Assembly: GCA_021819135.1 (NCBI GenBank)
Contig: JAKASE010000013.1
Location: forward strand, 1 to 60,783
Length of the DNA stretch: 60,783 bases
Reading direction: 5' to 3'
DNA from: Thermoplasmata archaeon
GTDB taxonomy: Archaea; Thermoplasmatota; Thermoplasmata; Lutacidiplasmatales; UBA184
Below are positions 50,936-58,573 of the stretch, piece after piece (within the stretch, counting starts at the first letter, position 1; each line of letters begins with the position of its first letter). The translations under genes and the position numbers were made by a program. The notes beneath the pieces were generated by a model. It was not told the DNA's origin. It saw nothing but the letters and a program-made list of their open reading frames with translations, and did not search any database.

Positions 50936-51379
50936 ATGGCCGAGCGGAAGGTGCTCTTCGTCTGCGTAGAGAACGCGGCGCGTTCGTTGATGGCCGAGTC
51001 TTTGTTCAACCAGCATCCGCCCACCGGGTGGACGGCGACGTCGGCCGGCACCCGGCCCGCGCCGACTCCCCACGGCCGGACCGAACCGATGCTCCGCGAG
51101 ATCGGCGTCCCCCTCCCCGCGCATCCCCCCCAGCTCCTGACGGAGGCGCTCATGGACGAAGCGTCGACCGTGATCACCATGGGGTGTCTTGATGACGCGA
51201 GCTGCCCGGCGCGACTGAAGACGATGGAGATCCGGGACTGGGCACTGGCGGATCCGGCGAGCCTGGATGACGCGGGCTTCCGCCAGGTCCGCGACGATAT
51301 TCGCCGTCGCGTGGAGGGTCTGCGGCGCGAACTGATCCTCAACGATCGCCGGCGCGCCCAACTCGGTCCGAACCGCTGA
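50936..51379 (+). CDS. ArsC-type (low-molecular-weight phosphatase fold) arsenate reductase-like protein
   Basis: The product has 147 residues. The P-loop is FVCVENAARSLMAES with nucleophile Cys10 and Arg16; the distal redox pair is MGCLDDASCPARL (Cys84, Cys90), followed by RDWALADPAS with the general-acid Asp. These three cysteines are the set used by thioredoxin-coupled arsenate reductases. In well-studied ArsC the loop reads CTGNSCRS, so the CVENAARS variant marks a different branch. It is divergent from the HxlR regulator and MFS carrier; an arsenic or thiol-stress role is inferred. Confidence 0.82.
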   Translation: MAERKVLFVCVENAARSLMAESLFNQHPPTGWTATSAGTRPAPTPHGRTEPMLREIGVPLPAHPPQLLTEALMDEASTVITMGCLDDASCPARLKTMEIRDWALADPASLDDAGFRQVRDDIRRRVEGLRRELILNDRRRAQLGPNR

Positions 51380-52027: not shown

Positions 52028-52717
52028 ATGGATAATGCCGAACTGAAGAGCCTGAAGACCCACCGAGTCGACACTCGTTCTCGATCCGGGCCGGGGACAC
52101 TTCTCGAGGCCCAGATCGCGCTGACGAAGATCCCGGAAGGGGAGGTGCTCGAGGCAATCTCCTCCGAGGAAGAGACGAAGTTTGACATGCGCCTCTGGGC
52201 CTGGCGCACCGGGCAGGAATTCCTCGGTGTGGTGCCGGCTGACGGATTCGATCGGATCTTCGTGCGACGTCACAAGATCGCGCCGCCGGTCTCGAGGGAC
52301 CTTCGAGAGGTGTTCCGCGACGAGGTGGTCCGGCGAGACCGTATCGTTTCCATCCTCAGAGTCACACCAATGACCCTTCCCGAACTCGCCAGTTCTCTCG
52401 GGGAGCCTGTCTATGATGTGAGCCTGTGGGTCTGGGGGATGCAGCGCTTCGGCCTTGTGCGCGCCCTGCCGAAGAAGCGGGAGGAGGACTACTATCAGTA
52501 CGCCGTGACGGAGAAGGCCCTCATCCCGAGGGAGGAAGGGATCGTTCGCGGAACGGCCGAACCACGATCCGAGGGCGTGCTCGTTGCTCCGCCCTCCAGC
52601 CCAGAGAGTCCGGCGCTGACGACCTTGCCGCCCTCGCCGGCGAACTTGGACCTCTCCGTGGGTACCGGCGCGCGTTCCCGACGAGCCCGCGCAGGTCCGA
52701 CGGCACGTACCGGGTGA
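52028..52717 (+). CDS. TusA/SirA-like domain without its cysteine, fused to a winged helix
   Basis: The product has 229 residues. Residues 10-82 follow TusA throughout: HRVDTRSRSGPGTLLEAQIA, GEVLEAISSEEETKFDMRLW, TGQEFLGVVPADGFDRIFVR. In TusA the third to fourth positions after DTRG are CPxP, the Cys carrying the persulfide; here they are Gly21-Pro22. Residues 95-170 are a winged-helix-like domain (RDRIVSILRVTPMTLPELAS, then VSLWVWGMQRFGLVRAL). The last 50 residues are low complexity. I infer a regulator or adaptor that keeps the TusA fold for partner contact without sulfur transfer. It precedes the HdrA-like gene by 184 bases. Confidence 0.72.
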   Translation: MDNAELKSLKTHRVDTRSRSGPGTLLEAQIALTKIPEGEVLEAISSEEETKFDMRLWAWRTGQEFLGVVPADGFDRIFVRRHKIAPPVSRDLREVFRDEVVRRDRIVSILRVTPMTLPELASSLGEPVYDVSLWVWGMQRFGLVRALPKKREEDYYQYAVTEKALIPREEGIVRGTAEPRSEGVLVAPPSSPESPALTTLPPSPANLDLSVGTGARSRRARAGPTARTG

Positions 52718-52901: not shown

Positions 52902-55685
52902 GTGGTGATGTCGGCCGCTTCGGAGCCGTCCCAGTACGACGTTCTCGTCGTCGGGGGAGGGATTGGGGGGATCGAAGCAGCCCTGAACCTGGGCGATATG
53001 GGCTTTCGGGTCCTTCTCGTCGAGAAGGAGCCGAGCATCGGCGGGAGGATGATTCTCCTCAGCAAGGTCTTCCCGACCCTCGACTGCGCGAGCTGCATCT
53101 CCACCCCGAAAATGGCGGCGGTGGCGAACCATCCGAACGTTCGGACTCTCGTGACATCGGAAGTACGCCGCATCTCACCTGAGAACGGACTCGGCTTCTC
53201 GGTGGAACTGACCCAGAATCCGACGTTCATCGACGCCGCCGCGTGCACCGGGTGCGAGCTTTGCGAGGCGGCCTGTCCCGTGAACCTTCCCGATGAGTTC
53301 AACTACGACCTCTCCCCGCGGCATGTCGCCCATATCGCCTTCCCCCAGGCGGTCCCGAAGAAGGCCGTAATCTCCCGGCGAGGGACGTCCCCCTGCTCGT
53401 TCACCTGCCCCGCGGGCGTCAAGCCGCACGGATACATCGCCCTCGTGCGGGCCGGACTCTATGACGAGGCGTTCCGTCAGCATCTCGAAGATGCCCCGCT
53501 TCCGGGGGTCTTGAGCCGAGCCTGCTACGCGACCTGTGAGGAGGAGTGCTCCCGCGCCGAACTGGAGGGACCGGTCCCCATCCGGGGGATCAAACGGTTC
53601 CTCGTCGACCGCTACTACGCGTCCCATCCCGAGCCCGAGTACGGCCCCTCGCCGGTTCGCACGGGCTACAGGGTCGCCGTCGTCGGCTCCGGTCCGGCCG
53701 GCCTCACGGCCGCCTACTATCTAGCGAGGGCGGGGCATGACGTCACGATCTTCGAGGCCGACACGAAGCCCGGCGGGATGCTCCGATATGGGATCCCGTC
53801 CTACCGGCTGCCGGAGGGTGTGCTCGACCGCGACCTGAAGAACATCGCCGCGCTCGGGACAGAACTGCGCACCGGGGTTCGGGTCCGATCGCTGGTCGAA
53901 CTCCGCACCGGCGGATTCGACGCCATATTCCTCAGCGCGGGAGCGGTCGGTGGGCGGCGTCTCGGTTCCCCGGGCGACGATCTGGTCGGCGTTTTCGATT
54001 CCCTCGACTTCCTCCGCCGGATAAAGGACGGATCGGCCCCGGATCTCATGGGTCAAAGCGTCGTCGTGGTCGGGGGAGGGAACGTGGCGATCGACTGCGC
54101 ACGCAGCGCTGTCCGACTCCGCGCGAAGGAGGTTCACCTGGTGTATCGGCGTTCCCGCGAGGAGATGCCGGCCCACGCAGGAGAGGTCCGGGAGGCAGAA
54201 GTCGAGGGCGTGCAGCTTCACGACCGCTGGCTCGTCGACCGGGTCGTGGGTGCGGACGGAAAGGCGACGGCGATCGATCTTGCGGGGGCGCTCTCGGAGG
54301 GCGGCAAGGGTCGCGGCCATCGGCTGCGGCGCGACGAAACGCGCCGTCTCACCCTTCGCAGCGACGCGATCATCTCCGCGATCGGGCTCAATCCGGGCTC
54401 ATCCCAGTTCGCCTCCGAGGTCGAGTGCCGGCCTGACCAGACCGTCACGGTTGACCCGGAAACGATGCAGACCACGTTGCCGTACGTCTTCGCCGGCGGC
54501 GACGTGGTGCTCGGGCCGAGCTCGATCGCCGAGGCGATGGGCCAGGGGAGGCGCGCCGCGTTCTACCTCGATCGATACGTGCGGGGGCTCCCGCCGGGGC
54601 GGGCGGATTTTGACGCTCCGCTTCCCAAGGTCGAACGCTCGCTGGTCGTCCAGGAGAGCGTCGGAAAGGTCAGCAAGCGCCCCGCGATCTCGGGTCGAAC
54701 GCGGCCGCTCGAGGAGCGCGTCGCTTCTTTCGACGAGTACGAGCTCACGATGAGCAAGGACGAGGCCCGAGCGAGCGCGGACCGCTGTCTCGACTGCGCG
54801 TACTGCTCGGAGTGCCGACAGTGCGTCGCGGCGTGCCCGGCCGACGCGATACACCTCGACATGCGCGCCCGGCCCGAGATCGTCCGAGTGCGGGCGGTCG
54901 CGCTCGCGACGGGATTCCACCTGTTTGACGCTCGGAAGCGCCCGACTCTCGGTTTCGGCCGTTTCCCGAACGTGATCACCGGAGCGCAGGTCGACCGCAT
55001 TCTTGCTCCGACCCGTCCGTACAACGCCGTTGTCCGTCCCTCGGACGGCAAGGTCCCTTCGAACGTGGCCTTCGTCCTGTGCGTCGGGTCGCGGGACGAA
55101 CAAGCGGGAAATCGGCTCTGCTCGCGCGTCTGCTGCATGTACTCGATCAAACAGGCCCATCTCCTGATGGGATCCCTTCTCTACGCGGAAGCGACGATCT
55201 ACTACATCGACATCCGCGCCTTCGGCAAGGGCTACGAGGAGTTCTATCAGCTGACGAAGGGGATGGGGGTCCATTTCGTGAAGGGTCGGGTTGCCCGAGT
55301 GGAAGAGACCGACCACAACGACCTCCTGGTCCACTTCGAGGACATCGAGGGCGGTGGCGGCCATCGGGTAGCGCGCCACGACCTGGTCGTTCTCGCGACC
55401 GGACTTCTGCCGAACGTCGACGCCTTCGCCCTCTTCCCGGAAGGAATGCGTCCGAAAGGCACCGCGTCGTACTTCGAGGAGCCGGACGAGGCGCTCGAAC
55501 CGGGAAAGACCTCGCTCTCGGGCGTGTTCGCCGTCGGTGCCGCGACAGCGGTCCGGGACATTCCCGACACGATTGTCCATGCCCAGGCCGCCTCGGCCCA
55601 GATCGCCGCATTTCTCCGCAAAGCCCATGCCGTGCCCGGGGGTGCGAGCGCTCGGGTTCGCACCGCGCAGGAGGCGAAATCGTGA
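52902..55685 (+). CDS. HdrA-like flavoprotein with an internal GltD/NfnB-type module
   Basis: The product has 927 residues (GTG at 52902; ATG at 52908 also possible). First FAD site VVGGGIGGIEAALNLGDMG (17-35), CxxC at Cys62 and Cys65 in the HdrA stretch LDCASCISTPKMAAV, and ferredoxin cysteines 115, 118, 121, 125. Then a GltD-like section: Cys165, 169, 208, 212, 216 for Fe-S clusters, a second Rossmann site VVGSGPAGLTAAYYL (260-274), and an NAD(P) site VVVVGGGNVAIDCA (387-400). HdrA resumes with a 4Fe-4S set (Cys629-645) and LCVGSRDE, LCSRVCCMYS. Such chimeras can split electrons between pyridine nucleotide, ferredoxin and disulfide partners. No HdrB or HdrC is in the window. Confidence 0.88.
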   Translation: MVMSAASEPSQYDVLVVGGGIGGIEAALNLGDMGFRVLLVEKEPSIGGRMILLSKVFPTLDCASCISTPKMAAVANHPNVRTLVTSEVRRISPENGLGFSVELTQNPTFIDAAACTGCELCEAACPVNLPDEFNYDLSPRHVAHIAFPQAVPKKAVISRRGTSPCSFTCPAGVKPHGYIALVRAGLYDEAFRQHLEDAPLPGVLSRACYATCEEECSRAELEGPVPIRGIKRFLVDRYYASHPEPEYGPSPVRTGYRVAVVGSGPAGLTAAYYLARAGHDVTIFEADTKPGGMLRYGIPSYRLPEGVLDRDLKNIAALGTELRTGVRVRSLVELRTGGFDAIFLSAGAVGGRRLGSPGDDLVGVFDSLDFLRRIKDGSAPDLMGQSVVVVGGGNVAIDCARSAVRLRAKEVHLVYRRSREEMPAHAGEVREAEVEGVQLHDRWLVDRVVGADGKATAIDLAGALSEGGKGRGHRLRRDETRRLTLRSDAIISAIGLNPGSSQFASEVECRPDQTVTVDPETMQTTLPYVFAGGDVVLGPSSIAEAMGQGRRAAFYLDRYVRGLPPGRADFDAPLPKVERSLVVQESVGKVSKRPAISGRTRPLEERVASFDEYELTMSKDEARASADRCLDCAYCSECRQCVAACPADAIHLDMRARPEIVRVRAVALATGFHLFDARKRPTLGFGRFPNVITGAQVDRILAPTRPYNAVVRPSDGKVPSNVAFVLCVGSRDEQAGNRLCSRVCCMYSIKQAHLLMGSLLYAEATIYYIDIRAFGKGYEEFYQLTKGMGVHFVKGRVARVEETDHNDLLVHFEDIEGGGGHRVARHDLVVLATGLLPNVDAFALFPEGMRPKGTASYFEEPDEALEPGKTSLSGVFAVGAATAVRDIPDTIVHAQAASAQIAAFLRKAHAVPGGASARVRTAQEAKS

Positions 55686-55917: not shown

Positions 55918-57051
55918 ATGACACGAACCATGATCGAATCAAAGGAAGGCGGGAACGCCTCGATGGTCCGCTCCCATCGGGTGCAACGGACCGGGCGTTC
56001 CTCGCTGGCGGTCACGTTGCCGAAGTCGTGGACGAAGGCGTTGAACATCCATGTCGGGGACCCCGTGGCGCTGCGACAACGGGGCGACGGCACTCTCGAA
56101 CTCAACTTCTCCGGACCTCGGGAAGGGGACGAGGCGTCGACTCGACGGGTCGTGGTCGATGCGACGGGAGCGCGGACCGGCACCATCGGTCGGCTTCTGG
56201 TGGGAGCGTACGTCAGCGGCCAGGACCGGATCGTTGTGACGAATCTCTCCCCGGAAGCCCGGAGAGACATGTCCGAGATCGATCGGGTGGTGAAGCACCT
56301 GGTAGGCACGAGCCTCGTCAGTGACTCGGTCGACCAACTCGAGTACGAGGTCTACGTCGACCCATCGAAGTACCAGCACCTCACCCTGCACAATCGACTC
56401 TCGCAAATGCTGCACATGGAGGTCGACCTTCTGCGCCGATTCCTTGATGCCAGGGACGCGCGGCTCCTCGCCCAGCTGAGACCTATTGAGGACGAGGTCG
56501 ACCGGTTCTACTACCTCATCGTTCGCCAAGTGCATCTCGCCTCCAACGACTACCGCCTCGCCCGGCTGAGCGGCATGGCGAACCACGACTTTCAGCTCGG
56601 ATGCCGCCTTGTCGCGAAGATGCTGGAGGTCTTCGGGGATCTCCTCTCTGAGATCGGAACCGACCTCGAGACCGGGTGGTCGTCGATCCACCCACCGCCC
56701 CCGGAGATCCGGACCGGGTTATCCGGCATGCTCGGTCGGCTCGGGCAGCTCCTAGACTCCACCACGACCAACCTGACCGAGATGCGGGCGGGAGCGGCGG
56801 ATGAAACCCTCGGAGAGATCCGGAACGCTGAGGAGGAGTTCGCCGCGTTGCGCGATCGGCTCTCCAAGAGCGCCCGGGAGAAGGAGACCACGCATCTCGT
56901 GAACTGTGTGACCCTTCGTATCCTGATGAGCGTCTCGATGCTGCGAGTCATCAACGAGACGTGCATCAACCGGTCGGTCGCGCCGGAGAGCGTGGCCAAC
57001 GGCGGCTTCCAGCCCGTGAGCGCGAGCGCTTCCATGCCGCCGGCGCCTTGA
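55918..57051 (+). CDS. AbrB-domain PhoU-like regulator (second copy)
   Basis: The product has 377 residues from the ATG at 55918, directly after GGAGGT; the open frame upstream is out-of-frame with the preceding gene and unrelated. Residues 17-60 are an AbrB domain (HRVQRTGRSSLAVTLPKSW, then NIHVGDPVAL). The remainder is helical, with paired PhoU-like repeats that include FYYLIVRQVHLASNDYRLA. It resembles the copy at 1455-2549 in plan but shares little sequence outside AbrB. Standing between HdrA and DsrE homologues with no phosphate transporter near, it may regulate this locus rather than phosphate uptake. Confidence 0.82.
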   Translation: MTRTMIESKEGGNASMVRSHRVQRTGRSSLAVTLPKSWTKALNIHVGDPVALRQRGDGTLELNFSGPREGDEASTRRVVVDATGARTGTIGRLLVGAYVSGQDRIVVTNLSPEARRDMSEIDRVVKHLVGTSLVSDSVDQLEYEVYVDPSKYQHLTLHNRLSQMLHMEVDLLRRFLDARDARLLAQLRPIEDEVDRFYYLIVRQVHLASNDYRLARLSGMANHDFQLGCRLVAKMLEVFGDLLSEIGTDLETGWSSIHPPPPEIRTGLSGMLGRLGQLLDSTTTNLTEMRAGAADETLGEIRNAEEEFAALRDRLSKSAREKETTHLVNCVTLRILMSVSMLRVINETCINRSVAPESVANGGFQPVSASASMPPAP

Positions 57052-57465: not shown

Positions 57466-57929
57466 ATGTCTGGGGCGATCGCTGTCGAGTCGCGTGAGTC
57501 CGCCATAGCCGACCTATCCGAGCAGACGCCGGAGCCGCAGGGCGTATCGATGTTCGTGTTTTCCGGCGATCTCGACTCGGCGCTCGCCGCGTTCATCATC
57601 GCGAACGGGGCCGCGGCGATGGACCTGCCGGTGACGATGTTCTTCCCGTTCTGGGCTCCAACGTGCTACGCAAGGAAGGACCCGTCGCCGTCCAGAAGCC
57701 GAAGACCACGAAGGAGAAGATGTTCGGCGGGATGATGCCGCGCGGCCCGGGCGATCTCAAGATCTCTCAGATGGACTTGGCCGGGCTCGGCACCCGCATG
57801 ATCAAGTCCGAGATGACCGGAAAACACGTGATGGACCTCCCCCGCCTGATCGAGACGGCCCGGGGGCAGGGAGTTCACATCATCGCCGGCATGATGTCGA
57901 TGGACCTGATGGGGATCCACGGAGAGTAG
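57466..57929 (+). pseudogene. DsrE-family sulfurtransferase homologue with frameshift and early stop
   Basis: From the ATG at 57466 the first frame runs to FSGDLDSALAAFIIANGAAA and VTMFFPFW, then similarity jumps to another frame: NVLRKEGPVAVQ, KEKMFGGMMPRGPGDLKIS, and MMSMDLMGIHGE. In the DsrE3A-like family these join as FFxFWGxNVLRK, so one base is missing in the GGG at 57653-57655. The TAG at 57927 falls where relatives read a Glu, and downstream LLDGSTMAG resembles the missing tail before similarity fades. The conserved Cys in the ACxMSMDxMGI box is Gly (IIAGMMSMDLMG). Either a decaying gene or, for the frameshift, a sequence error. Confidence 0.75.
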
Positions 57930-58573
57930 CTCCTCGATGGCTCGACTATGGCGGGGTCGGAAACTCTGTCGACTCCGCGGACAAGAGCCGCTCGCCGCGG
58001 TTCATCTGAACCTACGTCCCACGCTTTCCCCGCCTCAGGACCGGGAATCGCACTTCCCGGTGCCGGGGGTACTGCCAGAGTTCTCGTCCTTATCCTTCGC
58101 CGTGCGCCCGGCGAATGGGTATCGGTCGGCATCTCCGATCTCCTCGGGCGAGAATACAGGAGGCAAAGGGCGAGGGACGTCTTCTACTGTTCGGCGACGT
58201 TCTGCTCCACTCCAGAGGTCGCGAGCCACCCCAATCTCGCCGGCTTTCATGGGCCTGACATTGTTCAGACCATCTCCCGCGGTCTTGACGAGCCACAGGA
58301 GGTCGAGGTGCCTGAGCCCGGTTTCGGCCGAGGGTCGTTCGTCGTTGTATAGGGAACAAAGATGCCGACGAAGGGGAAGTAGAGGCACAAGGCCCCGGCT
58401 TTCTCAATCCCTGCCGGACCAGTCGCTACGGAGCTTCCCCACTATCCGGGGTAGCGCACTACAATCTCACTCCTCTCCCGGCGCGAAGGCGTCGTCAGGA
58501 GAGCCGGGGCGGACCGGAGCCACGGTTTCTTTCATAGGCTCGGTGGTCTCGCATGCCGAGCGATTCGACGCCG
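57930..58573. other. 644-base gap without a supported gene
   Basis: Several open frames cross it on both strands, including one on the plus strand that continues the DsrE-like frame past its stop to 58352. None shows a domain or ribosome site. The first 40 bases look like the decayed end of the DsrE-like gene. Confidence 0.4.

Follow-up and report, generated by a model that had tools for sequence, protein, structure and literature searches.

Sulfur carriers of the TusA type, such as Ta1170/Ta1414 of Thermoplasma (PDB 1pav) and TusA of E. coli (PDB 3lvj), share a characteristic fold and are defined by the cysteine of a CPxP motif. In the sHdr-LbpA systems of Hyphomicrobium denitrificans and others, TusA and DsrE-type carriers are found together with HdrA-, HdrB- and HdrC-type proteins, as described in extracts of PMC11582611 and PMC6067878. 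A further elaboration of the Hdr theme is HdrL of sulfate reducers, an HdrA with an extra NADH/FAD domain that is associated with MvhD in the description given in part of PMC12142623. Regulation of sulfur metabolism has been attributed to ArsR-type, winged-helix repressors including SoxR, which senses sulfane sulfur through a cysteine bridge according to a section of PMC11582611. Here, we describe a gene of a Thermoplasmata archaeon in which a TusA domain devoid of its cysteine is joined to a winged helix, together with the partial Hdr-like gene cluster in which it is found.

The window, i.e., the whole stretch of 60,783 nucleotides that was analysed, is contig C31 of a metagenome-type genome (G000; 2.2 Mb in 47 contigs), and the features around the fusion are collected in Table 1, where the window's versions of cluster components are marked by a prime. 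The initial annotation had recognised in the 229-residue protein a TusA-like domain that had lost its persulfide cysteine and was followed by a winged helix, and these three elements were borne out. The Pfam TusA profile (PF01206) scores 34.5 bits on residues 13–80, exceeding its cut-off of 28.6, which disposes of the objection that TusA homology might be absent, and the TusA fold is still predicted for TusA' in the full-length structure model. The position of the CPxP cysteine is occupied by Gly21, encoded by GGG, where all six relatives whose codons were compared have TGC or TGT, and the second proline of the motif is changed as well. The cysteine is kept in all 22 other rows of the alignment of cluster TusA proteins (A2), in all ten TusA stretches from eight further loci and, as judged by eye, in the five other TusA domains of the same genome. 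Relatives thus do keep the residue, as the initial annotation had foreseen for the case of a sequencing error; a single wrong base is, however, ruled out, since the step from TGY to GGG takes two base changes and the protein departs from its relatives at nine otherwise invariant columns. Judged from its sequence, the fusion is a TusA homologue by descent that lacks the family's defining cysteine, and it is not classed here as a sulfur carrier.

Table 1. Features of the fusion gene and of the partial cluster copy in the window
Feature	Coordinates	Strand	Remarks
TusA'-wH' fusion gene, 229 aa	52028..52717	+	ATG start; stop at 52715-52717; no internal stop
TusA' domain, residues 1-83	52028..52276	+	C21G and P24T; 9/27 columns invariant in 16 relatives changed
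Winged-helix domain wH', residues 84-165	52277..52522	+	Relatives encode it as a gene of its own, flanked by hdrA2 and hdrC
C-terminal tail, residues 166-229	52523..52714	+	G+C flat over the codon positions; modelled with low confidence; probably past a lost stop
hdrA1', HdrA-like flavoprotein, 925 aa	52908..55685	+	Inserted glutamate-synthase-beta-like NAD(P)H module; 21/21 conserved Cys columns kept
MazE/AbrB-PhoU domain protein	55930..57051	+	Homologue adjoins hdrB in the complete cluster (C40) of the same genome
dsrE2' remnant	57547..58006	+	79% identical to the C40 gene in nucleotides; frame broken at two places, plus a stop codon; Gly in place of the conserved Cys

TusA' and wH' are joined without a linker, the junction lying within a residue of both ends of the separate genes. 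The tail (residues 166–229) has G+C contents of 0.70/0.72/0.72 over the codon positions, a negative coding score and low confidence in the full-length model; it is probably a read-through into formerly non-coding DNA after loss of the wH stop. Given the flat G+C and the negative coding score, the conserved protein corresponds to about residues 1–165. Upstream of the fusion, a gene of the low-molecular-weight phosphatase/arsenate-reductase type (PF01451) is located at 50936–51379, followed by some 650 bases that contain no convincing gene. The region at 51.3–53.0 kb gave no match to a riboswitch or other known RNA.

The fold of the second domain became evident from structure. In the full-length model, wH' was folded with no relatives as input and is of low confidence, and a separate AlphaFold model of residues 84–165 was used in its place; this domain model has a mean pLDDT of 85.5 and the element order H-H-H-E-E, i.e., three helices and a two-stranded wing as in ArsR/MarR-type winged-helix proteins. 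SmtB, CzrA and ZitR are its best Foldseek matches (E 2.3e-4 and weaker). In the profile searches proposed by the initial annotation, the TusA match was significant; the winged-helix profiles remained weak, the best of them being Pfam HTH_5 (3 of 19 members, E 1.1e-5). The best PDB sequence match of wH has an E-value of 0.011, no NCBIfam model was found with the fusion and one standalone member as queries, and no named family was found for this small winged-helix protein. The putative recognition helix shows strong conservation and a hydrophobic character (consensus E-V-T-x-W-V-M-x-M-R-R-Y); its net charge is 0 to +2 across wH proteins and 0 in the window protein. Acquisition of wH' from an unrelated regulator is ruled out, since the domain matches the wH gene of the cluster itself (35–58% identity in the wH-type matches). 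Over the phylum, the wH profile hits 29 of 292 genomes at E<=0.001 and only seven at E<1e-20; the weaker matches look like ordinary HTH proteins. Standalone wH genes encode about 83 aa (L025:5386-5637, L060:9521-9769, L082:9989-10240 and others) and often overlap hdrA2 by a few bases.

In the relatives, the two halves of the fusion are separate genes of a cluster with the constant order dsrE2-tusA-mvhD-hdrA1-hdrA2-wH-hdrC-hdrB. When the proteins of all eight cluster genes, together with the neighbouring PhoU-type protein, were placed on 28 sources (the window and 27 loci), wH was present in 20 of the 27 loci, all of them archaeal and each time with wH between hdrA2 and hdrC. A tusA gene lies 4–5.4 kb from wH in 19 of these 20 loci, the remaining one being a contig fragment, and a DsrE2 match is found in 18. 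No wH match was obtained in seven loci, comprising three in which the cluster is present (L028, L065 and L076) and four in which it was not seen (L029, L030, L031 and L057); a separate search of 61 relatives gave a weak wH match at the expected place in L028. A scan of 84,980 species genomes yielded 22 loci, 13 of which were mapped; L084 and L064 represent one and the same stretch, leaving 12. In all 12, wH follows hdrA2, and hdrC comes next in 11, the sequence of L096 being masked there. Seven of the 12 are titled Dehalococcoidia, Chloroflexi, Deltaproteobacteria (three), Myxococcota or Caldisericia, and L096 belongs to the Thermoplasmata; four are titled just "bacterium", which is weak evidence, as this label is also borne by L084, which comes from the same genus as the window. 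The cluster is, thus, seen in Thermoplasmata and on contigs labelled Chloroflexota, Myxococcota and Caldisericota. The unnamed wH is a conserved Hdr-cluster component in archaea and on contigs labelled bacterial, and it is a more general lead than the fusion.

The fusion, by contrast with its separate halves, was found once. Among 61 relatives and 400 genomes of the class, only the window matched the whole protein; at E<=1e-6, matches occur in 25 of 103 family genomes, full-length in its own genome only (1/103 in the family, 1/400 in the class), and in other genomes, any single match covers just one of the halves. Searches of open-licence papers found neither a TusA-winged-helix protein nor a fusion of TusA with a helix-turn-helix in connection with persulfide, and a query combining TusA, heterodisulfide reductase and winged helix returned just a paper on a two-component system.

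The full eight-gene order is not found in the window, which holds the fused tusA'-wH', hdrA1' and the broken dsrE2'; a tblastn search at E<=1 of the stretch from 50 to 60.8 kb revealed no convincing remnants of mvhD, hdrA2, hdrC or hdrB, all matches being either cross-matches within hdrA1' or at chance level. A complete eight-gene cluster with a MazE/AbrB-PhoU gene alongside is present on contig C40 (L025) of the same genome, the two PhoU-type genes being 53% identical. At E<=1e-100, hdrA1 is matched in 17 of 103 family genomes, and two copies occur only in the genome of the window. The NAD(P)H/glutamate-synthase-beta module is inserted at about residues 160–620 of the HdrA-like protein (52908-55685; L025:7355-10144), and the cluster copies in L028, L065, L066, L073, L075 and L076 match HdrA1 only outside this segment. 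The cysteine columns retained by HdrA1' are Cys in 25 other rows (21/21), and in DsrE2', Gly takes the place of a Cys that is present in 16 of 16 other rows. With the carrier residues gone from both small carriers and the flavoprotein kept, the copy seems to have left the sulfur relay. The loss of the cysteine from the fusion is probably due to its location in this spare, partly broken cluster copy.

TusA' is the most altered of the components. It is changed at 9 of 27 otherwise invariant columns (A16T, G18S, C21G, P24T, K29Q, D47E, G49E, P55R and K60R), compared with 0–3 of 27–30 in the other rows; the corresponding figures are 3 of 16 for wH' (other rows, 0–2 of 16–18) and 22 of 361 for HdrA1' (other rows, 0–23 of 361–384). 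In Fisher tests, which ignore shared ancestry, TusA' differs from HdrA1' (p 7e-5), while wH' does not do so significantly (p 0.08). Relaxation confined to the active site of TusA' was not supported by the same kind of test, the active-site segment being changed at 5 of 11 columns against 4 of 16 elsewhere (p 0.41). The end branch of TusA' is 1.21, i.e., eight times the tree median of 0.15, that of wH' 1.29 (median 0.36) and that of HdrA1' 0.58 (median 0.25). Pairwise dN/dS values, with dS near saturation, are 0.21–0.26 for TusA' against its nearest clade, 0.30–0.70 for wH' and 0.23–0.34 for HdrA1'; most of them fall within the control-pair ranges, and they do not support neutral drift over the whole TusA' branch. 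For TusA' and its nearest clade, pN (0.28–0.31) is under half of pS (0.65–0.67); most pN/pS values are within the range of control pairs, the value of 0.80 for TusA' against L067 exceeding the control maximum of 0.67.

HdrA1' pairs with G022 at full support (100/100), whereas TusA' groups with G079/G154/G061 (six rows, 97/86) on a long branch of unsure placement, wH' has a poorly resolved position with G183 nearest, and dsrE2' is, among three genes compared, nearest to that of C40 in its own genome. As the trees disagree on origin, the partial copy around the fusion may, on this phylogenetic ground, be a mosaic. One alignment that combined full-length and single-domain rows (A3) was set aside because of a MAFFT misalignment in which TusA rows had been drawn into the wH region.

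The reading that we favour, with a probability of about 0.55, is that two components of a conserved Hdr-like sulfur/electron-transfer cluster, TusA and wH, have become one gene within a second, partial cluster copy, and that the product, if made, is a fast-evolving, non-catalytic partner. The copy would have abandoned the sulfur relay; in it, TusA' and DsrE2' are both deprived of the carrier cysteine, dsrE2' is broken, and hdrA1' is intact and constrained. TusA'-wH' would evolve fast under relaxed constraint; it might dock on HdrA1' or on the C40-encoded complex via its wH and TusA surfaces, passing no sulfur, and could, when docked, either serve as a spacer subunit or compete with the true TusA. 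Against this reading stands that dN/dS gives no proof of relaxation (0.21–0.26 for TusA'), that the parts have different nearest relatives, leaving a simple duplication of one cluster unproven, and that the fusion is known from a single genome, with docking being what we infer. A bolder version, which is speculative and rather unlikely, sees in wH a docking or gating subunit, not a transcription factor, that would hold TusA on a widespread NAD(P)H-linked Hdr-like complex; the fusion would then be a permanently docked, sulfur-dead plug by which the second complex, that of HdrA1', gives up sulfur relay and only transfers electrons.

The main rival to a non-catalytic partner is a plain decaying gene, i.e., a functionless side effect of the rearrangements that a duplicate undergoes as it dies out, on its way to being lost, which we consider unlikely but to be taken seriously. 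The broken neighbour dsrE2', the absence of four cluster genes from the copy, the lost wH stop with its non-coding-like tail and the altered invariant columns of TusA' fit well with it, as does a third-position G+C of 0.75–0.79 in the fusion and 0.82 in hdrA1', compared with 0.868–0.977 in hdrA1 of 16 archaeal relatives. However, the 165 codons of both domains are open with a coding-type codon-position G+C, the low pN relative to pS in TusA' implies selection over most of the branch, and hdrA1' is intact. A further rival is an artefact of assembly or sequencing, with a mis-joined contig or wrong bases: there is one metagenome-type genome in 47 contigs, the parts have different nearest relatives and dsrE2' has frame breaks. 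Such an artefact is, nevertheless, highly improbable in view of the two base changes behind the loss of the cysteine and the number of invariant columns altered (nine, not one), and considering that the genes flanking the fusion are long and open, with the 925 codons of hdrA1' uninterrupted between the fusion and dsrE2'.

The initial annotation had suggested a regulator, whose winged helix would bind DNA and whose dead TusA domain would putatively read sulfur-relay partners or a ligand. The fold is indeed ArsR/MarR-like, and ArsR-type repressors control sHdr systems; in the portion of PMC11582611 at hand, TusA is discussed, not demonstrated, as sulfur donor, and the loading of such repressors by TusA, which is left open there, is the nearest published idea. 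A purpose-built regulator is, however, improbable and finds no support in the locus. The wH is a component of TusA's own Hdr-like cluster, placed beside hdrC and not divergently, the fusion was found once, and the adjacent dsrE2' is broken and without its cysteine. The conserved, hydrophobic recognition helix of low charge is unlike one tuned to varying operators, and there is no strong dyad upstream, with only four short palindromes at 51.37–52.93 kb. As the protein contains no cysteine at all, sensing of sulfane sulfur by a SoxR-type cysteine bridge is precluded.

Further sulfur-related genes were noted in the genome. On C26, a GcvH/LbpA-like lipoyl domain (PF01597, residues 23–135) is fused to a TusA domain (residues 166–229; L030:137-874) that keeps a cysteine and lacks the CPxP prolines. 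A TusA-like protein of 97 aa on C16 (L031:1201-1494) scores 24.4 bits, just below the cut-off of 28.6, and has Cys-Ala-Gly-Val in place of CPxP. On C12, a run of lipoate-ligase-like, DsrE-like, GcvH/LbpA-like, HdrB-like and HdrC-like genes (L029:13125-16809) gives this Thermoplasmata genome a separate cluster that resembles an sHdr-LbpA system.

If the fused protein works, it would be a use of the TusA scaffold without sulfur chemistry and a natural pointer to a TusA-wH contact in an Hdr-like complex; if the gene is merely decaying, it would be a clean case of a sulfur relay lost from a duplicated locus with the flavoprotein kept.

In comparison with the known TusA carriers, the fusion has the same fold and a match to the family profile, and the cluster TusA rows match 1pav at E 9.7e-22 and 3lvj at E 3.8e-6; unlike these carriers, it has lost the CPxP cysteine and the second proline, has a winged helix attached and cannot bear a persulfide at the family's cysteine. 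In contrast to the sHdr-LbpA systems, the cluster described here includes MvhD, two HdrA-like proteins, one of them with an NAD(P)H module, and wH. HdrL, likened by its description in part of PMC12142623, shares with hdrA1 the second NAD(P)H/FAD module and the association with MvhD, but accompanies, in that account, formate dehydrogenase and not TusA, wH and DsrE2. The ArsR-type sulfane-sulfur repressors SoxR and sHdrR, finally, have in common with wH the winged-helix fold and a setting in sulfur metabolism; those repressors, however, act through two conserved cysteines, as stated in the section of PMC11582611 consulted, and the fusion has neither, while wH is encoded within a structural gene run.
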